The notes below the pieces were generated by a model that searched no databases, was not told the origin of the DNA, and worked only from the letters and a program-made list of their open reading frames with translations. A DNA stretch of 44,800 nt from a virus: positions 1 through 44,800 of the IMG/VR virus record IMGVR_UViG_3300004097_000011; one strand, 5' to 3'. Numbering within the stretch: position 1 is the first letter of the stretch; every line of letters starts with the position of its first letter. Positions 2,403-43,233 of this stretch are shown here, piece after piece. The translations under genes were made by a program, and so were the position numbers.

Positions 2403-2438
2403 CTTTACGTTTATTTGTAAGTTGCTTTACGTTTATTT
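2403..2438. repeat. 14-bp direct repeat around an intergenic gap
   Basis: CTTTACGTTTATTT occurs at 2403-2416 and again at 2425-2438, separated by eight bases. The second copy contains the stop codon of the Ala-rich gene and the first lies just before the ribosome binding site of the 2391 gene. It probably arose by a small duplication. No function is evident. Confidence 0.7.
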
Positions 2439-3038
2439 AACTAATTCCATTAGTTTATCTGTTTGTTTTTGTATCATTAATCTTTTATCTTGGGTATAAG
2501 CATCAAAAGCATTAGCAGCAGCATAAACAGCACAAGCAGCATGAGTAGCGCAATCAGCAACATAATAAGCAGCAGCATCAGCAGCATAAGTAGCATCAGC
2601 AGCATCAGCATAAGTAGCAGCAGCAGCATCAGCAGCAGCATTAGCAGCATAAGCAGCAGCAGCATTAGCAGCATAAGCAGCATTAGCAGCATAAACAGCA
2701 TAAGCAGCATCAATAGCAGCAGCATACATATCTTCTTGAGATGCCTTTTCATTTAAATAACTTTCTGCTACATCTAGTGCTTTTATACTTCTTTTATCTT
2801 TCATTAAATGATGTACTTGCCGAGCGCAGCATATAGAGTAACTTTGAAATATTTTTATATGTTCAGGCGCGCAACGTGCACACCATAATGTATCTTGCAA
2901 TCCATTAGACTCAAGAATTACGCTGAATGGTAAAACTTCATCATCTGCTTTAGTTTTGTTTAAATTTCCTAGTAATTTTTTCCATCCTTTTGAGCATGGG
3001 TCGTGTTTTTTTATTTCTTTTAATGTTGTTGTAATCAT
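2433..3038 (-). CDS. alanine-repeat protein, Imm5-like
   Basis: Protein of 201 residues. The N-terminal ~100 residues contain a helical segment with SNGLQDTLWCARCAPEHIK, then CCARQVHHLMKDKRSIKALDVAESYL. The next ~75 residues are almost pure helical repeats of the AAYAANA type, encoded by a GCA/GCT-rich tract (about 2508-2728). A short charged tail closes it. The architecture (Ser-Asn-Gly-Leu-x-Asp-x-Leu-Trp head followed by a long Ala-rich helix) resembles the Imm5-like family found in phages and polymorphic-toxin loci. I infer membership from memory of the pattern only. The start follows AAAAGGAGATTAAA and a separate promoter, leader and terminator structure lie upstream. Confidence 0.75.
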   Translation of the reverse strand: MITTTLKEIKKHDPCSKGWKKLLGNLNKTKADDEVLPFSVILESNGLQDTLWCARCAPEHIKIFQSYSICCARQVHHLMKDKRSIKALDVAESYLNEKASQEDMYAAAIDAAYAVYAANAAYAANAAAAYAANAAADAAAATYADAADATYAADAAAYYVADCATHAACAVYAAANAFDAYTQDKRLMIQKQTDKLMELVK

Positions 3039-3228: not shown

Positions 3229-3642
3229 TTATTTAACTGTATGCCATTCGTGCCCTGATGCTTTAGAGTTGATATCGCCTATCTTTAACGCCATCACTTG
3301 TTGCTTATGAAAACGGTCGCACTCTTTACGCATCATTCGTTTAAATCCTTTCATCGGTGCTACTGCGTGTAGATTGGTGTCAATTTTGGTACGACCCAAA
3401 ACCCGCACTATTTGGTCAATTTTTTTTATATCGTGATTCCATAAAAAATTACCCAGTTTCGGGATATTTCCGCAAACGAATGTTGCTATTCGTTTATTCA
3501 GATGTAACTGGTTGGGTAATCGTTTCAGTTTTAATGCTTCCAAATCTTCCAGGTTATACCCGTTAAGAAGTCGCCACGCATGTGCATCCCCGGCTTTATA
3601 GAATGCTTCAATTAATATCCTGTCATATTCTGCTTGTGTCAT
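3229..3642 (-). CDS. hypothetical 137-residue early protein
   Basis: The start ATG at 3642 follows AAAGGATTAATT. An upstream in-frame ATG at 3666 lacks a good ribosome site and would overlap the preceding gene. The product is basic (many Lys/Arg, several His), helix-rich, with RIATFVCGNIPKLGNFLWNHD near the middle. I do not recognise the family. A nucleic-acid-binding role would fit the charge but is not shown. It starts two bases after the stop of the preceding small gene. Confidence 0.65.
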   Translation of the reverse strand: MTQAEYDRILIEAFYKAGDAHAWRLLNGYNLEDLEALKLKRLPNQLHLNKRIATFVCGNIPKLGNFLWNHDIKKIDQIVRVLGRTKIDTNLHAVAPMKGFKRMMRKECDRFHKQQVMALKIGDINSKASGHEWHTVK

Positions 3643-3644
3643 AA

Positions 3645-3824
3645 TTAATCCTTTATCATTACGCAATAATATCCACCTAGTTTTTCCCGATTTAATCTGT
3701 CTGCCAGACTCACTGCTTTAACTTGTTTTTTGAATTTGCGGACTATCTGACCGCCATTATCAAGTGCTTTTTCTGTTACAAATTCACAAATTTTAGTTGG
3801 TGTGCGGACTACATAGTATTTCAT
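3645..3824 (-). CDS. small basic protein, 59 residues
   Basis: A short leftward gene: ATG at 3824 after GGAGATTAAA, 59 residues, stop at 3645. The product begins MKYYVVRTPTKICEFVTEKA and is Lys/Arg-rich in its middle (RKFKKQVKAV). It sits exactly between two other leftward genes (9 and 2 bases away). No family recognised. The reading frame is supported by the strong ribosome site and packing. Confidence 0.65.
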   Translation of the reverse strand: MKYYVVRTPTKICEFVTEKALDNGGQIVRKFKKQVKAVSLADRLNREKLGGYYCVMIKD

Positions 3825-3833
3825 TTTAATCTC

Positions 3834-4028
3834 CTAATATGCTTGATTCTTTGTCATCATTAAGTCTGATGATTCCGTCCAATATCCAATAGCTTCATCC
3901 CATTCAACTTCAATAACTTCATTCAAATCCACTGCGTTTACCATTTCACCTTCGTTATTTACATACCACCATTCTGCGTAGATCCCTGTTGATCCTGTTT
4001 CGATATTCATATAAGTTGTATTAGTCAT
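3834..4028 (-). CDS. first gene of the leftward early operon, 64-residue acidic protein
   Basis: The start at 4028 follows AAAGGAAATTAAA. A longer frame to 4121 would run through the promoter, so it is rejected. The product (64 residues, net acidic, rich in Trp/Glu: EWWYVNNEGEM, EVEWDEAIGYW) has no recognised family. It is the promoter-proximal gene of the leftward early block, a position often held by host take-over proteins. That role is only inferred. Confidence 0.65.
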   Translation of the reverse strand: MTNTTYMNIETGSTGIYAEWWYVNNEGEMVNAVDLNEVIEVEWDEAIGYWTESSDLMMTKNQAY

Positions 4029-4089
4029 TTTAATTTCCTTTCTGGTTTCCAAGTTCCGCTTTGTCGGCACTTCCTGATCTCTTAAATGT

Positions 4090-4118
4090 ATTGTATAGTG
4101 CTTAATCGGGAAAGTAAA
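4090..4118 (-). promoter_or_regulatory. leftward early promoter
   Basis: On the leftward strand TTTACT (4113-4118) and TACAAT (4090-4095) are separated by 17 bases, about 60 bases before the first leftward gene. It is back-to-back with the rightward promoter at 4161. Confidence 0.6.
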
Positions 4119-4160
4119 CAAAAAGTTAAATAATAATTGCTATTTATTTTTGAATATAGC

Positions 4161-4189
4161 TTGCATTTATTAAACGTATGGTTTATTAT
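4161..4189 (+). promoter_or_regulatory. rightward promoter of the ibrA-like operon
   Basis: TTGCAT (4161-4166), 17-base spacer, TATTAT (4184-4189): a good sigma70-type match ending 30 bases before the first rightward gene. The -10 context GTTTATTATGT resembles the GTTTATAATGT motif found elsewhere in the window. Confidence 0.65.
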
Positions 4190-4219
4190 GTCGTTAGTTA
4201 CTTAAATTAAGGAATTAGT

Positions 4220-5518
4220 ATGAAAAGAGTATATAAAGAGAAAGACGTGTACGAGGCAGCAAATGAAAGGATAAAGTTTATTTTTGAAAACTTTCCTCGC
4301 ATATACGTTTCTTTTTCTGGCGGCAAAGATAGCGGGGTTATGCTAAATCTTATGATTGATTATATGAGAAAGAATAACATAAGCAAAAAAATAGGCGTTA
4401 TGATTTTAGATAACGAGGCCAATTATGAATATTCTCTAAGGTTTATGCACGACATCATAAGGAATAATTTGGATGTTCTTGATGTTTATTGGTGCTGTCT
4501 TCCTATTACGCTGCCTTGCACAGTAAGCTCATATGCTTTTGAATGGCAATGTTGGGGTGAGGAAGATAAAGCTAGATGGATAAGACCAATGCCAACAGAT
4601 GATTACATCGTTAATATCGATAATCATAAATTTGATTTCTTTGAAGAAAACATGCCATACAATGAATTTTGGGATAAATTCGGTGATTGGTACGGGGGTG
4701 GCGAGGTTACAGCTTGTCTTATCGGTATAAGGACATCAGAAAGTCTTAATAGATTTAGGGCGATAATGAATGAGAATAAAAAGATTCTGAAAGGGCAGAT
4801 GTGGACAAAGTTAAATACTGAAACTACATATAACTGTTACCCGATATATGACTGGATGACAAAAGATGTGTGGATAGCCAACGAAACTTTTGAATGGGAC
4901 TATAACAAGCTATACGACATTTTTTACAAAGCCGGGGTTCCTGTCGGAAGTATGCGGGTTGCCTCTCCATTTATGAGTGAATCAAAGTCAAGCCTTGGTC
5001 TTTATAGGGTTATAGATCCGCATGTATGGGCCAAACTTTGTGCACGTGTTCAAGGCGCAAATTTCATAGCCACCTACGGAAAGCAGCTTGGCTATAAAAG
5101 TTTCAAATTGCCAGAGGGTCACACATGGAAGTCGTTTACAAAATTCCTTCTTGATACCTTGCCAAAGGAAGTTTCAGATAATTTTAAAATGCGCTTCATT
5201 CAGTCTTTTAAATACTGGGGAAGGGTGGGGCGCGGATTACAAAATGAGGTGATAAATGATTTAAAAGATAATAATATTGACTTTAGATTAAACGGGAAAA
5301 CTAGGCATGGAAGTAAACTTCTTGACAGGGTAGCGATTAGAAAATTTCCAGATCATTTAGATGTTCTTAAATGCAACAATGGAATTGTGGCTTCCTGGAA
5401 AAGATTTGCTATAACCATTTTAAAGAATGATCACACATGCAAGTATATGGGGCTTGCACCAACTAAGGAACAGGCAGTTAGGCAAAGATTAATAATGGCA
5501 AAATACAAAAAAATATAA
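4220..5518 (+). CDS. IbrA-like protein, PAPS reductase/ATP pyrophosphatase family with DUF3440-type C-terminus
   Basis: 432 residues. A PP-loop SGGKDSG lies at residues 33-39, the nucleotide-binding signature of the phosphoadenosine-phosphosulfate reductase and N-type ATP pyrophosphatase family. The rest, through GIRTSESLNRFRA, YPIYDWMTKDVW and a C-terminal block (about 388-432, ASWKRFAITILKND..), is typical of the IbrA/DUF3440 group. IbrA with IbrB was described as a regulator of eib genes in E. coli, but its chemistry is not settled. DndC of DNA phosphorothioation belongs to the same superfamily. Here it is the first gene after a strong promoter and is followed by a cupin and an IbrB-like gene. 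The chemical role in the phage is unknown. Confidence 0.88.
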   Translation: MKRVYKEKDVYEAANERIKFIFENFPRIYVSFSGGKDSGVMLNLMIDYMRKNNISKKIGVMILDNEANYEYSLRFMHDIIRNNLDVLDVYWCCLPITLPCTVSSYAFEWQCWGEEDKARWIRPMPTDDYIVNIDNHKFDFFEENMPYNEFWDKFGDWYGGGEVTACLIGIRTSESLNRFRAIMNENKKILKGQMWTKLNTETTYNCYPIYDWMTKDVWIANETFEWDYNKLYDIFYKAGVPVGSMRVASPFMSESKSSLGLYRVIDPHVWAKLCARVQGANFIATYGKQLGYKSFKLPEGHTWKSFTKFLLDTLPKEVSDNFKMRFIQSFKYWGRVGRGLQNEVINDLKDNNIDFRLNGKTRHGSKLLDRVAIRKFPDHLDVLKCNNGIVASWKRFAITILKNDHTCKYMGLAPTKEQAVRQRLIMAKYKKI

Positions 5519-5528
5519 GGGATAAAAA

Positions 5529-5918
5529 ATGAAAATTTTAACACCGCGTACATCAGATGATTCAGGTAGAACAGTAGAATGCCCGACAGGAGGATTTGTA
5601 AGTCGCAGAATGCTTCTTGAAGAAGATGGAATGGGCTATACGATAACCCACACAACAATAACTCCAGGCATGCGGCAAAGGTGGCATTATAAAAATCACC
5701 TTGAATCGTGTTATTGCTTAAAAGGCATGGGGGTATTAACTGAAGAGGAAACTGGATACCAGTATACAATTTTACCTGGTCGGATGTACGTTCTTGACAA
5801 ACATGATGCCCATTCATTTATGGCAACAGTAGAAGTTGAATTATTGTGCGTATTTAACCCGCCATTAAAAGGCCGTGAAGTTCATCAAGAAGATGGCTCA
5901 TACTCAATAAAGGATTAA
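5529..5918 (+). CDS. ectoine synthase-like cupin (EctC family)
   Basis: 129 residues, full length for EctC, which cyclises N-gamma-acetyl-diaminobutyrate to ectoine. The family signature is clear along the whole protein: PTGGF.SRR.LLEEDGMGY near 19-37, HYKNHLESCYCL at 53-64, GRMYVLDKHDAH at 84-95, and FNPPLKGREVHQEDGSY at 109-125. Glu59, Tyr87 and His95 align with the iron ligands known for ectoine synthase, so the active site seems intact. No ectA or ectB is present. Solitary EctC proteins exist and EctC can also act on glutamine-like substrates. Ten bases separate it from the IbrA-like gene and one base from the IbrB-like gene, so it belongs to that cassette. The physiological substrate is unknown. 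Confidence 0.88.
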   Translation: MKILTPRTSDDSGRTVECPTGGFVSRRMLLEEDGMGYTITHTTITPGMRQRWHYKNHLESCYCLKGMGVLTEEETGYQYTILPGRMYVLDKHDAHSFMATVEVELLCVFNPPLKGREVHQEDGSYSIKD

Positions 5919-5919
5919 A

Positions 5920-6468
5920 ATGGAAAGCACATTTAAAAGCCCAGTTTACAACGTACTATCGGTTCATATTGATAGAATAAAAGCTAATGATTACAACCCA
6001 AATGCTGTTGCCCCGCCAGAAATGGAGCTGCTAGAAATATCTATCTGGGAAGATGGTTATACTCAGCCAGTGGTCACGGTGCACGATAAAGAAAACGATC
6101 AATATGTTGTTGTTGATGGTTTTCATAGATACCTTACGATAAAGAATAGCAAGCGTATATATGACCGTGAAAACGGGATGCTTCCTATCGTTGTTCTTGA
6201 TAAAGAAATTGGCGATAGAATGGCCTCTACAATACGGCATAACAGAGCTAGGGGATCTCATAACATTGAACTTATGAGTACCATAGTTTCTGAACTGGTA
6301 GAAATGGGCAAGGGTGATAGATGGATATGCAAGCACATTGGGATGAGTGTTGATGAATTGCTAAGATTGAAGCAGATAACTGGTGTGGCTGCTTTATTTA
6401 AAAACACAGACTTTTCCAAAAGCTGGGAGGCCGAATCAGGTGAAGAGGATTTATCATCACTGGACTAA
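5920..6468 (+). CDS. IbrB-like ParB/sulfiredoxin-fold protein
   Basis: 182 residues. The N-terminal domain has the ParB/Srx nucleotide-binding pattern: IKANDYNPN (20-28), VDGFHR (65-70) and RHNRARGSHN (106-115). The C-terminal part (about 118-160: DRWICKHIGMSVDELLRLKQITG) is a helix-turn-helix-like segment. IbrB proteins of this type are usually paired with IbrA, as here. The DGxHR motif also occurs in DndB-type proteins of the phosphorothioation field. The ribosome site AAAGGATTAAA overlaps the end of the cupin gene, so translation is coupled. Binding of DNA or nucleotides is expected from the family but unproven here. Confidence 0.85.
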   Translation: MESTFKSPVYNVLSVHIDRIKANDYNPNAVAPPEMELLEISIWEDGYTQPVVTVHDKENDQYVVVDGFHRYLTIKNSKRIYDRENGMLPIVVLDKEIGDRMASTIRHNRARGSHNIELMSTIVSELVEMGKGDRWICKHIGMSVDELLRLKQITGVAALFKNTDFSKSWEAESGEEDLSSLD

Positions 6469-6811
6469 ATGGGAATGTTATAAGGCAGGGTTTTTTGGGT
6501 CATCCTTGCCCGAAGGAATAGTCAAGGAAGAAGCTGAAAGTCAATACGCTGAATTCTTGTCCGATATAGAACTTTTTACTTATTCTATGGAGTGCGTTAT
6601 AAATGAGTGGCCTAATTCATGCGATCAATTCTTATCCAATGCAAGTATGAATAGAATTGCGTGGCTTGGCCAGTCGTCTATGTGTTTGTACAGCGGCGTT
6701 CCATCAAGATATAAATCAGGTTTTAGGTTGATGTCTGATGATAAGCAGAATAATGCTAATTTAGCTGCAAAAAAAATACTGGAAAGGTGGATAAAAGATC
6801 GTGAGGGATAA
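6440..6811 (+). CDS. conserved phage protein (YHHWTKWECYKAGF type) in the Ibr cassette
   Basis: A GTG start at 6440 behind GGGAGG is chosen, giving 123 residues that begin VKRIYHHWTKWECYKAGFF. The frame extends upstream to 6383, but that would overlap the IbrB gene by 86 bases and lacks a ribosome site. The N-terminal pattern (I-Y-H-H-x-x-x-W-E-x-Y-K-x-G) is one I know from small proteins that travel with IbrA/IbrB-like genes in phages. Its role is unknown. A Trp/Cys-rich middle (INEWPNSCDQFL, RIAWLGQSSMCLY) and a basic tail are visible. It overlaps IbrB upstream by 29 bases and the next gene by 11. Confidence 0.75.
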   Translation: MKRIYHHWTKWECYKAGFFGSSLPEGIVKEEAESQYAEFLSDIELFTYSMECVINEWPNSCDQFLSNASMNRIAWLGQSSMCLYSGVPSRYKSGFRLMSDDKQNNANLAAKKILERWIKDREG

Positions 6812-7034
6812 ACTTATAATTGATTATATTGAGTATTGGAAAGATAGGGGATATCCTGACGGAATACCCGACGAAGTTCCAGATGAATTAATGAATTTAA
6901 GGATTGCTCCATCTTACAAGGCTATATGTATGTGTGTTTTGGCAAATGATTTGAAATTCTATGGGCTTGGGTTCTCCAGGCCTAAATCCAAATGGTATGG
7001 CATTCTGAAAAGAATAGAGATTGAGTCAAGATAA
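6801..7034 (+). CDS. small protein resembling the C-terminal module of IbrA/DUF3440
   Basis: 77 residues from a GTG at 6801 (GGTGG ten bases upstream). Residues 36-60, APSYKAICMCVLAND, then GLGFSRPK, align without gaps with the C-terminus of the IbrA-like protein (ASWKRFAITILKND, then MGLAPTK). Identical anchors are Ser, Lys, Leu, Asn-Asp and Gly at matching spacings. It therefore looks like a free-standing copy of that module. The N-terminal YWKDRGYPDGIPDEVPDEL also fits sequence seen in IbrA-like proteins of other organisms. It is the last gene of the cassette before the terminase promoter. Confidence 0.7.
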   Translation: MRDKLIIDYIEYWKDRGYPDGIPDEVPDELMNLRIAPSYKAICMCVLANDLKFYGLGFSRPKSKWYGILKRIEIESR

Positions 7035-30055: not shown

Positions 30056-30544
30056 TTACTTGATCTTTTTCCTTTCTTCTTTTTCAGCCCTTATTTCCCT
30101 GCTGCCGTGAAATGTTCTTATATCTTCCATACTGAACTTTCCACGCGATCTGCTTTTATAATCTGCTGGTCTAAAATACCACTTCATTTTTTTACTAGCC
30201 CATTTGTACCCTGATTTTTTAATTTCTTCTTTATGTGGCCTGGTATCGCCTGACAACCACACCCACACGCCGCAAACTTCAATGTCTATACCTTCCATCC
30301 TTAAAGCTGCTTTAATCGCGTCACTGAGCTTGTCGTCGTAATCAGGGGTATCATTAACGATAGTGAAGTCTGATTCTTTCTTTAAGACTTCAAAAGCAAT
30401 ATTAATCAGCTTCATCATTTCTAATCCGGCTGGATTTCGGTCAGGATGAAATTTGAAACACGCTTTTCTGTATGCTGCTTTGATTATTTCTTGATTGATG
30501 TCGCCGGAAATGGCTAGGATTTTAACTGCTTCTGTTCTGTACAT
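30056..30544 (-). CDS. J-domain (DnaJ-like) protein
   Basis: 162 residues. J domain in the N-terminal 60 residues: helix (EAVKILAISGDINQEIIKAA), YRKACFKFHPDRNP with the HPD motif at 33-35. The C-terminal half holds VWVWLSGDTRPHKEEIKKSG and KWASKKMKWYFRP, which recurs in phage proteins of this type. It would recruit host DnaK, for replication complex remodelling or folding; the substrate is not evident. A promoter lies 45 bases upstream. Confidence 0.88.
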   Translation of the reverse strand: MYRTEAVKILAISGDINQEIIKAAYRKACFKFHPDRNPAGLEMMKLINIAFEVLKKESDFTIVNDTPDYDDKLSDAIKAALRMEGIDIEVCGVWVWLSGDTRPHKEEIKKSGYKWASKKMKWYFRPADYKSRSRGKFSMEDIRTFHGSREIRAEKEERKKIK

Positions 30545-30822: not shown

Positions 30823-31009
30823 TTAACTTCTCCCAAAGTTCGCTGGTGTAGGGTGTCCATTCAATATTAGTGTTGATATAATTCTCTATAAATATATTCA
30901 TAACCATGCCGTGTCTCGTATAAAGTTTTAAATTATCCCTATCTCTGCATATAAATTCACAGTCATCATCAGGCGGCATTTGATCCGAGCATTTCTTCCA
31001 GGTTGTCAT
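30809..31009 (-). CDS. DUF551-like protein, copy 1
   Basis: 66 residues. MTTWKKCSDQMPPDDDCEFI to EWTPYTSELWEKLNEKI fits the DUF551 pattern of W-x-x-C-x-x-x-M-P followed by a C-terminal W-x-P. It is a paralogue of the 31331-31528 product, which lies on the other side of the MazG gene: both have WxKC..QMP..D and EW.PxT..xWEKxN. Function unknown. Confidence 0.72.
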   Translation of the reverse strand: MTTWKKCSDQMPPDDDCEFICRDRDNLKLYTRHGMVMNIFIENYINTNIEWTPYTSELWEKLNEKI

Positions 31010-31341
31010 ATCACCTCAGCCTTGTTAAGAATGGCAACAGATTCATCATATTTTGAATCTGTGCTTTTTATAAAAACACCGTCAAGCATGATTCCTTTAC
31101 GGTCTTTAATATCTTCATAGGCTATTTCCAAACACTCTGATAAACTGGTATCAAGCTGTGCTGCCAGTATAATTAGCACAACCAAGCAATCTCCTATATC
31201 ATCTTTACAATCTGATTGTTTGTTTATGTTGTCGGCAAGTTCTCCTACTTCGGACATTAATTTAAGCGTCTGTGATTTAGAGTCAGATCCTTTAATTAAA
31301 TTTCTATCGTTTGCCCATTTAATTACTTTTTCAAGTTCCAT
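31006..31341 (-). CDS. MazG-like nucleotide pyrophosphohydrolase
   Basis: 111 residues. KLMSEVGELADNINKQ and DDIGDCLVVLIILAAQL are the MazG-type E-x-x-E and D-D-x-x-D metal-binding signatures (all-alpha NTP pyrophosphohydrolase). Members hydrolyse (d)NTPs or ppGpp. Phage MazG is thought to adjust nucleotide pools or host starvation signalling. It is flanked by the two DUF551-like genes with short overlaps, so the three form one unit. Confidence 0.85.
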   Translation of the reverse strand: MELEKVIKWANDRNLIKGSDSKSQTLKLMSEVGELADNINKQSDCKDDIGDCLVVLIILAAQLDTSLSECLEIAYEDIKDRKGIMLDGVFIKSTDSKYDESVAILNKAEVI

Positions 31342-39232: not shown

Positions 39233-39742
39233 TTAAAATTTCCCCGGCGCAACCTGAAGACAAGTTATACCGTTATTTCTCCACATCTCAACAACACGAT
39301 CCCTGTCGTCGAATATAGCAGCCAAACGATTCCTATCTTCATCTAACATATTATTTAACCATTGTTCTTTTAATACATGATCTGGTGTGAAATCACCGTT
39401 TTGACGCATAATCAATCTCTCTGGCAAAACAGGAATTACATCAAATGTGTTTTTGCATAACCACTCAACAGTAAGATCCCTTACATCTTCTGTTCTGCCA
39501 GTAAAAAACCAGATATCAGCACCAGTTAAAGCCAATCTTTGCATAATTGAGATAATTGGCAAATTTGGCTTGTCGTCGCCACATTTCTTATAAAAATCTT
39601 TCCATTTGTCAGGGTTGTTTTCTTCCTTTAAAATATTAAGTCTGTGTTCAATAAAAGCCAGCGTCCCATCAATATCAAAGATATAAAGTGGCTTTATTTC
39701 CCTGTCAGTTTTTATTGACTGGTCTTTACTTGTAGTTCCCAT
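39233..39742 (-). CDS. HAD-family phosphatase (polynucleotide 3'-phosphatase-like)
   Basis: 169 residues from ATG 39742, with GGAGG eight bases upstream. IFDIDGTLAFIEHRL is HAD motif I with the nucleophile Asp; WFFTGRTEDVRD motif II; Lys/Arg region and AAIFDDRDRVVEMWR motif IV. This resembles the phosphatase domain of T4 polynucleotide kinase. It would remove 3' phosphates from nucleic acid or act on small substrates. It lies next to the broken gene and two mini-ORFs. Confidence 0.82.
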   Translation of the reverse strand: MGTTSKDQSIKTDREIKPLYIFDIDGTLAFIEHRLNILKEENNPDKWKDFYKKCGDDKPNLPIISIMQRLALTGADIWFFTGRTEDVRDLTVEWLCKNTFDVIPVLPERLIMRQNGDFTPDHVLKEQWLNNMLDEDRNRLAAIFDDRDRVVEMWRNNGITCLQVAPGKF

Positions 39743-39744
39743 TC

Positions 39745-39855
39745 TCAATACCTCCATGAAATACAATCATCGTAATAATCGAACCCCGTCCCAACGACAA
39801 AGTATATAGACAAATAAACCAAAAGTATAGAAGAAATTAAAATTAATGATCTCAT
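39745..39855 (-). CDS. small membrane peptide, 36 residues
   Basis: ATG 39855 in ATGA overlap with the preceding mini-ORF. Product MRSLILISSILLVYLSIYFV then a short polar tail. One membrane helix. The stop lies two bases from the HAD start. Packing supports translation, function unknown. Confidence 0.45.
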   Translation of the reverse strand: MRSLILISSILLVYLSIYFVVGTGFDYYDDCISWRY

Positions 39856-41446: not shown

Positions 41447-41959
41447 TCATAATGGTCTGTCCTGTCCGTGGTTTTTGTGGTAGCCGTAGGCTATTTCTGA
41501 TGCTTTGCGTGCACATGCCGCCTCGAATATGTGACTGAAGTAGCCTAAGTGTATGATCGGTTTAGTGCCCACGTATGCATGCCACTTCTGTTTGTCATTC
41601 CGCCAATGTACACCCGTACAACCTGATATATTGTCGTCCCGCAGTCTGTGATTCTTATTGTTCTGAGTGCGCGTAGCATGGCGCATGTTCACCCATCTGT
41701 TATCGGTACCATCGCCAGAAATATGATCTACTTCGTCTGGAGGAAAAACACCTTTCACGTATAGGAAGGCCAGTCTATGGGCTTTGTAGTGTTTGCCATG
41801 CAACGTGATGACGATGTACTTCTTGCCACGTACCGTTTGCACGCTTCCTGCTATCCAGCCCTTCTTTACAGGCCCTCTGCCCTTCAACCACACAAAAATG
41901 CCGGTTTCAGGGTCGTAGTGCAGCAGTTCTTTGAGTCTAGCCTGCGTTAGATCCTTCAT
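41447..41959 (-). CDS. HNH homing-type endonuclease with AP2-like domain
   Basis: 170 residues. LHYDPETGIFVWLKG and HRLAFLYVKGVFPPDEVDHI, then SGDGTDNRWVNMRHATRTQN (HNH core: His-Asp...Asn). C-terminal SGCTGVHWRNDKQKWHAYV is an AP2-like DNA-binding domain. These free-standing genes can spread by cutting related phages. It starts at the subtilase stop (ATGA), so it may ride in that transcript. Confidence 0.88.
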   Translation of the reverse strand: MKDLTQARLKELLHYDPETGIFVWLKGRGPVKKGWIAGSVQTVRGKKYIVITLHGKHYKAHRLAFLYVKGVFPPDEVDHISGDGTDNRWVNMRHATRTQNNKNHRLRDDNISGCTGVHWRNDKQKWHAYVGTKPIIHLGYFSHIFEAACARKASEIAYGYHKNHGQDRPL

Positions 41960-43233
41960 GCCACTATCGCAAAGTCAAAGGTATCAGTTTGCTCGATGCC
42001 ACCTTGCCCAACAATAACAACATGCGCGGTATGGTCGCCCTCTGTTGCGTTATCAAGTTGCAACTTATCGTTAATGCCGCCAAATCCGTGAAGATTACCG
42101 TGATAAGTGGTACCTGCTGAAAGACCGTCAAATGATATTAAATGATCGCCTCCCTGATATGGCACGTAGTTTCCGGATGCGTCCCGGTCAAATGTTCCGT
42201 CAGGTGTCTCAATAAATACCTTAACACCGAAACTTGTTTCTTGCTCTGGCAACAAATAACTAAAGGTCAGGTCTTGAGTTTTGCCCCATAAATCTTGGGG
42301 AATATGAATCAAAGGATCTGTGCGCCCTGTAGCGTCGTTATCGTGCAAGAAAAATCCAAGATTTAATGAACCATTTTCTGCAAGACCAGTTGCGGGTATA
42401 TCCATCACTGGAAGCGTGTAGTCATATATTTGATCTATCACAGTACCTGCTTCAACGATCCCAGTTTCAATTGCTTCCTTAGCAAGTAGAATCGCACCGC
42501 TTACTATTGGTGCTGAAAATGATGTGCCGTTCCATGTCCCCACATCACCATTTTTGAATACGCCTGTAACATTCTGGCCAACTGCCAAAATATCGACCAC
42601 ATCGCCGTTCTGTGAGAAATTAGATTCAGTTAAGAATCTTGTATGAGACCCTACAACATCAACCCTTGGGTCGTAATTAGCAGGCCAGCCCGGTTCAATA
42701 TGTTCCCGCCCTGCGTTACCTGCTGATGCTACAACCCTGATACCTAAATCAAGTGCTTCAACAATGACATCTTTAAAATCTTGTGGACCATTAAAGAAAC
42801 CGCTCAGTGATAAGTTAATAACATCGACACCTAATTCAATACCCCAGTTAACTGAATCTATAAGGGCTTGTGTGTTATAGGTTCCTGCGCTGCCCTCGTT
42901 AGCTTTAGCAATATAAATATCTGCTTCATCTGCGATTCCTGCACCAAGTTCGCCGTCATGGTTGTCACCAATCATGTATGAAATGAAAGTCTCGTGGCTG
43001 TGTAAATCCTGCCAAGATTGGTCAGAAGAAAATGATCGCCCTTCCTTAATGTCAATCGTGTCATGGTTCGTTGGGCCACCTGTCCCGACTATAAGAATTG
43101 ATTGGCCTGCGCCATGAAGGTTATATTCACTCCAAGCATAATCAATGTTGTTGGTCTGTATGTGATTAGGTGATGATGTCCGGTCGGTTACATCGGTACG
43201 TGTGAAAAGTGGATCTGTTGGTAATGTGTACAT
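41956..43233 (-). CDS. subtilisin-like (S8) protein lacking the canonical Asp
   Basis: 425 residues. S8 layout: N-terminal PTDPLF and AWSEYNLHGAGQSILIVGTG, His region LHSHETFISYMIG (His80), oxyanion ASAGNAG (Asn173) and Ser238 in GTSFSAP. The first catalytic motif should read V-D-T-G but is VGTGG (49-53), so Gly50 replaces Asp. The codon is GGG, two changes from an Asp codon. C-terminal ~170 residues form a beta-rich domain (YLLPEQETSFGVKVFIETPD). No signal peptide, so it would act in the cytoplasm. It may be inactive, use another residue, or serve binding. Confidence 0.85.
   Translation of the reverse strand: MYTLPTDPLFTRTDVTDRTSSPNHIQTNNIDYAWSEYNLHGAGQSILIVGTGGPTNHDTIDIKEGRSFSSDQSWQDLHSHETFISYMIGDNHDGELGAGIADEADIYIAKANEGSAGTYNTQALIDSVNWGIELGVDVINLSLSGFFNGPQDFKDVIVEALDLGIRVVASAGNAGREHIEPGWPANYDPRVDVVGSHTRFLTESNFSQNGDVVDILAVGQNVTGVFKNGDVGTWNGTSFSAPIVSGAILLAKEAIETGIVEAGTVIDQIYDYTLPVMDIPATGLAENGSLNLGFFLHDNDATGRTDPLIHIPQDLWGKTQDLTFSYLLPEQETSFGVKVFIETPDGTFDRDASGNYVPYQGGDHLISFDGLSAGTTYHGNLHGFGGINDKLQLDNATEGDHTAHVVIVGQGGIEQTDTFDFAIVA

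Follow-up and report, generated by a model that had tools for sequence, protein, structure and literature searches.

Adjacent genes for IbrA and IbrB are known from an island of Escherichia coli ECOR-9 and from many phages, and the E. coli K-12 genes ybdN/ybdM are annotated with the domains of this pair (PMC9068703). Here we describe a phage cassette in which this pair occurs together with a homologue of the ectoine synthase EctC and two small proteins, g4 and g5. The cassette comprises five open reading frames, all on the + strand, packed at positions 4220–7034 of a 44.8-kb virus record in IMG/VR (IMGVR_UViG_3300004097_000011), the whole of which was analysed and is called the window below. 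The combination of genes that an initial annotation had pointed out in this DNA is confirmed, and extends to a conserved module. We propose, with a probability of roughly 40%, that the cassette serves phages as a module for biosynthesis and modification, in which an amino-acid-like group would be cyclised by EctC, with phage DNA as the likeliest target.

Comparison with described systems

The window contains the same two adjacent families as the known IbrA/IbrB pairs; its IbrA, however, belongs to a clade tied to EctC, g4 and g5, whereas EctC is absent from most other pairs examined. With the EctC of ectABC operons the phage protein shares the cupin family, the iron ligands, most substrate residues and a score above the NCBIfam cut-off. 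Unlike that enzyme, it occurs without EctA and EctB, lacks Trp21, falls on a separate branch and is always accompanied by IbrA/IbrB.

A PP-loop enzyme resembling PAPS reductase is also found in the Dnd/Ssp phosphorothioation systems and, as BrxP, in BREX type 4, and Dnd has a ParB-like protein too – likenesses that had led the initial annotation to compare IbrA with DndC and IbrB with DndB. Both links now appear weak. The cassette proteins score far under the family cut-offs (for IbrA, 23.1 bits against the 290.4 required by the NCBIfam DndC model), scans of the five proteins against family libraries reveal no DndD or DndE partner, and the tailoring enzymes of the cassettes are not those of sulphur chemistry.

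The phage 5-carboxymethylcytosine system (CmoA/CmoX/CmoY) likewise draws on repurposed RNA-modification enzymes together with an ATP-dependent ligase, which attaches an amino acid, glycine, to DNA; its genes often have ParBc neighbours (PMC12783734). Its enzyme families differ from those of our cassette, which contains no constant base-modifying methyltransferase and whose DNA product is putative.

Conservation and descent of the cassette

Pseudoalteromonas phage XCL1123 and Mycobacterium phage Gaia have this set of five genes in identical order, the latter with EctC fused to IbrB and with one additional gene (gp105) separating IbrB from g4. GenBank annotators had labelled the protein in both phages 'ectoine synthase/ParB multidomain protein'; the literature searched holds no description of EctC with IbrA/IbrB as a module, of the tailoring slot discussed below or of g4. 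A Streptococcus phage has an IbrA–IbrB pair without EctC, g4 and g5, and many more distant pairs are also without EctC.

A scan of IMG/VR for EctC returned 61 viral loci, and all those uncut by contig ends carry both IbrA and IbrB. One condition named with the initial annotation for its refutation, a cupin displaced or missing in homologous phages, thus did not refute it. Nearly all intact-flank viral EctC loci also have g4–g5, with the gene order permuted in some, and one locus (L006) encodes EctC, a methyltransferase and IbrB in a single open reading frame. An EctC between IbrA and IbrB, which had been considered unusual, is the rule of this clade. The addition of IbrB-seeded and g4-seeded scans gave 213 distinct IbrB genes, 129 of them with at least 2.5 kb on each side (full-flank genes). 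EctC accompanies 54 of these, always with IbrA (54/54) and nearly always with g4 (52/54), the other two having a helicase instead; of the 75 full-flank genes without EctC, 60 are accompanied by the helicase and 14 by g4. As the loci were fetched by homology to the queries, such counts speak for linkage, not abundance.

A tree of 118 IbrA rows, built by a quick method under LG+G4, unites the IbrAs found with EctC in one clade of 49 rows (support 100), and the phage EctCs stand on one side of a branch separating them from 18 bacterial EctCs, with support of 99.8 from only 126 columns. Because phage EctC and its companion IbrA each form one clade, EctC looks to have been acquired once by an IbrA/IbrB lineage and then retained, which is not the pattern of a casually acquired metabolic gene. 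The nearest bacterial EctCs, from Marinomonas and others, are not in a cassette context, since ectB mostly adjoins them.

Some loci need separate mention. A 'Bacteriophage sp.' GenBank record (MT835761; L004) was rejected as a source of phage EctC: the gene adjoins ectB in a bacterial ectoine operon, and the record is probably a bacterial contig that was misassigned. A phage-type cassette also occupies positions 3527–6276 of a 6.7-kb contig (L127) in a Saprospiraceae metagenome-assembled genome, possibly as a prophage fragment or through a binning error. Two genes look like homing endonucleases and were set aside as cassette members: a GIY-YIG/NUMOD3 gene inserted between EctC and IbrB in L032 (4510–5259) and gp105 of Gaia, the latter via the annotation of its relative Nebkiss.

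The EctC active site

The window EctC exceeds the curated cut-off for ectoine synthase (NF009806, 146.6 against 128 bits) as well as that of PF06339 (145.2 against 27 bits), and its PDB matches are ectoine synthases (5bxx at 5.8e-29, also 5onm-o). Glu59, Tyr87 and His95, correctly named as iron ligands from the outset, align with Glu57, Tyr84 and His92 of PlEctC and are kept in 49, 49 and 48 of 49 aligned phage EctCs, respectively. Among the residues with roles assigned in PMC6344544, equivalents of Ser23, Arg25, Thr40 and Tyr52 are present in all 49 and that of Phe106 in 46. Trp21, which packs on both substrate and ectoine, has no equivalent in any of the 49, its place being taken by F, M, L or a gap; the Asn38 position is variable, and His also predominates there in the bacterial EctCs used for comparison. 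The full substrate/product pocket of ectoine synthase, Trp21 and Asn38 included, is thereby incomplete in phage EctC. Since the iron ligands and most substrate residues are kept while Trp21 is lost, we read the phage EctC as a probable case of conserved cyclisation chemistry with a changed substrate.

The reported absence of the enzymes that precede EctC in ectoine synthesis is borne out: neither EctA nor EctB is encoded in the whole 44.8-kb record, neither has a match in the EctC-bearing virus records tested, and the metagenome-assembled genome holding L127 contains nothing above the EctA or EctB cut-off.

IbrA, IbrB and the small proteins

Strong family matches (Table 1) back the identities first given to IbrA, EctC and IbrB. 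IbrA combines an N-terminal PAPS-reductase-fold domain with a PP-loop (SGGKDS), kept in 62 homologues, and a C-terminal DUF3440 domain. The catalytic C-terminal cysteine motif of CysH, ECG[ILV]H, occurs in none of the 62 sequences, in which no cysteine other than Cys93 and Cys407 reaches 80% conservation. An AlphaFold model with a predicted local distance difference test score (pLDDT) of 87.5 matches CysH, ATP sulfurylase, FAD synthase and TilS in the PDB (GenBank-phage rows were left out of the AlphaFold input alignments). Because the PP-loop is kept, the model resembles these enzymes and the CysH motif is absent, IbrA probably acts as an adenylating enzyme rather than as a PAPS reductase.

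IbrB has the motifs DGFHR and TIRHNRARGSH, whose key residues are invariant in 46 homologues. It also matches ParB-domain DNA methyltransferases (phrog_498, 6.8e-9); the ParB fold is frequently found linked to DNA methyltransferases of phages, and ParB folds bind several nucleoside triphosphates (PMC12704722).

The g4 protein has no match in Pfam, PHROG, NCBIfam or PADLOC; with 60 diverse homologues aligned, it founds a new protein family. Its AlphaFold model (pLDDT 97.1) is that of a small helical protein, and a PDB fold search with the model returned nothing significant (best E-value 1.5) and no hint of function. Its neighbour g5, which adjoins it in XCL1123, Gaia and IMG/VR loci, matches only positions 139–178 of DUF3440, roughly its last 40, at slightly below the gathering score, and is without the HTC motif.

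The tailoring slot and the helicase

What lies between IbrA and IbrB varies among relatives. In three cassettes (L006, L031 and L061), a dioxygenase resembling EctD, with the HxD...H iron motif kept, lies between IbrA and EctC; TIGR02408 is by far the best family (7.9e-51, 5.6e-85 and 1.4e-55), at scores of 173, 285 and 189 bits that lie below its equivalog cut-off of 336.5. A viral scan seeded with EctD recovered only L031's own contig. Two of the three, L006 and L061, also share a related methyltransferase (64% identical to each other), which is fused between EctC and IbrB in the former and in the latter has a gene of its own, located between those for EctD and EctC. Cassettes without EctC have other occupants: GNAT acetyltransferases of more than one type in L160, L205, L206, L216, L217, L285 and L313, a different methyltransferase in L307 and L308, and, between IbrA and IbrB of the g4-bearing L318, L323 and L376, a PD-(D/E)XK nuclease-like gene (Pfam was run on L318 only). 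EctC and the searched GNATs never occur together. IbrAs with GNAT and those with g4 are scattered at several places on the IbrA tree, and the content of the slot has changed separately several times. Together these enzymes would provide cyclisation, hydroxylation, methylation and acetylation, reactions typical of the decoration of a small group that has both an amine and an amide.

Many EctC-less cassettes include an SNF2-type helicase, which in most loci carrying it lies within a few bp of IbrA; it precedes IbrA in 144 fetched loci and follows it in three, near-copies included. Helicase and g4–g5 occur together in none of the 129 full-flank genes. A strict mutual exclusion of the two is nevertheless weakened, because L315 carries both, other SF2/ResIII helicases lie near the g4 cassettes of phages Amjad_SA and Mwe-JY13, and the sampling was query-driven.

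Proposed function and alternatives

In the proposed module, the core would be formed by IbrA, as an adenylating PP-loop ATPase, and IbrB, as a ParB-fold protein that binds nucleoside triphosphates and probably DNA. This core would activate an amino-acid-like group and, at about the time of replication or packaging, install it, with phage DNA as the most likely acceptor. EctC, as an iron cupin, would close the group to a cyclic amidine by an amide-plus-amine condensation, as in ectoine synthesis. The EctD-like dioxygenase of some relatives would then hydroxylate the ring, and the methyltransferase may cap it, with an acetyltransferase or another methyltransferase taking the slot where EctC is missing; access to the target might be provided by g4–g5 or, in other cassettes, by the SNF2-type helicase. 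DNA is the most likely target by association – the helicase next to IbrA, the ParB fold and the parallel with 5-carboxymethylcytosine all point to it. A modification of DNA had also been among the hypotheses of the initial annotation, next to a role in transcriptional regulation. That the cassettes form a new class of DNA hypermodification, in which bases would bear the cyclic amidine, some phages would add hydroxylation and methylation to it and others would use acetylation or methylation in its place, is a possibility that we hold as doubtful.

Several points weigh against the proposed module. The modified base and its target, like the reaction, the order of steps and the roles of g4, g5 and the helicase, are inferred, not directly evidenced. 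Phage replication regions commonly contain helicases; EctD is present in three cassettes only, and GNAT-like slot enzymes in a minority. IbrB resembles canonical ParB weakly (TIGR00180 aligns with residues 14–150 at 2.5e-4 and 20.9 bits, below its cut-off of 58.45), and does not qualify as a ParB partition protein. The cassette contains no recognisable source of the amino-acid substrate. Finally, the only IbrA/IbrB phenotype found is activation of prophage eib genes in E. coli, as cited in PMC6008420.

The alternative that fares best, unlikely as it seems, keeps the same biosynthetic logic but directs it at RNA or tRNA, a protein, a nucleotide or a released small molecule serving as signal or inhibitor. 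The native substrates of EctC and EctD are free small molecules, and matches to the IbrA fold include, besides CysH, PP-loop enzymes that modify tRNA (TilS, TtuA, NcsA) and FAD synthase, an adenylyltransferase of free metabolites; it is the linkage to ParB-fold and helicase genes that points to DNA instead.

The eib phenotype gives some room to a regulatory or lysogenic-conversion module, in which IbrA and IbrB would activate prophage or host transcription and EctC would make or sense a ligand, as does the extension of IbrB's weak ParB alignment past the N-terminal domain. We consider this fairly improbable: the PP-loop is present in all IbrA homologues examined, the EctC iron site is intact, and a slot exchanged with acetyltransferase or methyltransferase, sometimes with a hydroxylase added, fits synthesis better than sensing.

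Less probable again is defence or superinfection exclusion, with the module marking or attacking competing DNA. PP-loop enzyme, ParB fold and helicase together recall Dnd and BREX type 4, and the helicase resembles, at low score, the SNF2 helicases of DISARM, Zorya and Dpd; yet no nuclease is constant in the cassette, and PADLOC yields weak DndC/BrxP matches to IbrA and none for the other proteins.

In the least likely reading, EctC is an auxiliary metabolic gene that helps to turn host-made N-gamma-acetyl-diaminobutyrate into the osmoprotectants ectoine or hydroxyectoine, which the conserved iron site and the EctD-like partners would suit, but which, as the initial annotation had judged, is disfavoured by the lack of EctA and EctB in the virus records tested and the loss of Trp21 in all 49 EctCs, and leaves the invariant IbrA/IbrB linkage unexplained.

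Gene layout and surroundings

Within the cassette, genes are spaced by about 10 bp or less or overlap briefly. The single promoter suggested for all five is unsupported by a sigma-70 scan, which finds no + strand site between 3700 and 7300; a phage-specific promoter may still exist. Other window features are listed alongside the cassette.

Table 1. Cassette genes and other features of the 44.8-kb window.
Feature	Position	Strand	Matches and remarks
Protein with long low-complexity stretch	2433–3038	−	rich in alanine/aspartate/tyrosine; without Pfam match
IbrA-like, 432 aa	4220–5518	+	PF11922 (DUF3440) 1e-59; PF01507 (PAPS_reduct) 9.8e-10; phrog_2302 6.6e-108
EctC-like cupin, 129 aa, proposed cyclase	5529–5918	+	PF06339 (Ectoine_synth) 1.6e-42; NF009806 146.6 bits
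IbrB-like, ParB/Srx-fold, 182 aa	5920–6468	+	phrog_2159 3e-78; ParB_N 1e-4 (weak)
g4, ~123 aa, all-helical	6440–6811	+	GTG start; overlaps end of IbrB; no family match
g5, 77 aa, stand-alone IbrA C-terminal module	6801–7034	+	DUF3440 2.9e-5; phrog_15645 6.2e-9
Small open reading frame	7161		downstream of cassette; weak helix-turn-helix match only
Terminase large subunit	7528		follows the small open reading frame
DnaJ-domain protein	30056–30544	−	amid − strand genes
MazG-like protein	31006–31341
PNKP-type phosphatase	39233–39766	−	HAD_PNKP 2.6e-28; amid − strand genes
Subtilisin-family protease (Peptidase_S8)	41956–43233	−	long C-terminal part; amid − strand phage genes

Significance

The cassette spans phages of very different bacteria, and two of these, Gaia (host M. 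smegmatis) and XCL1123 (host Pseudoalteromonas marina), are cultured, which makes the idea of DNA modification directly testable. It also suggests a function for EctC outside ectoine operons, a question raised in PMC6344544. For IbrA/IbrB, widespread but of unknown biochemistry, the cassette provides a context in which their companions would be exchangeable small-molecule tailoring enzymes.

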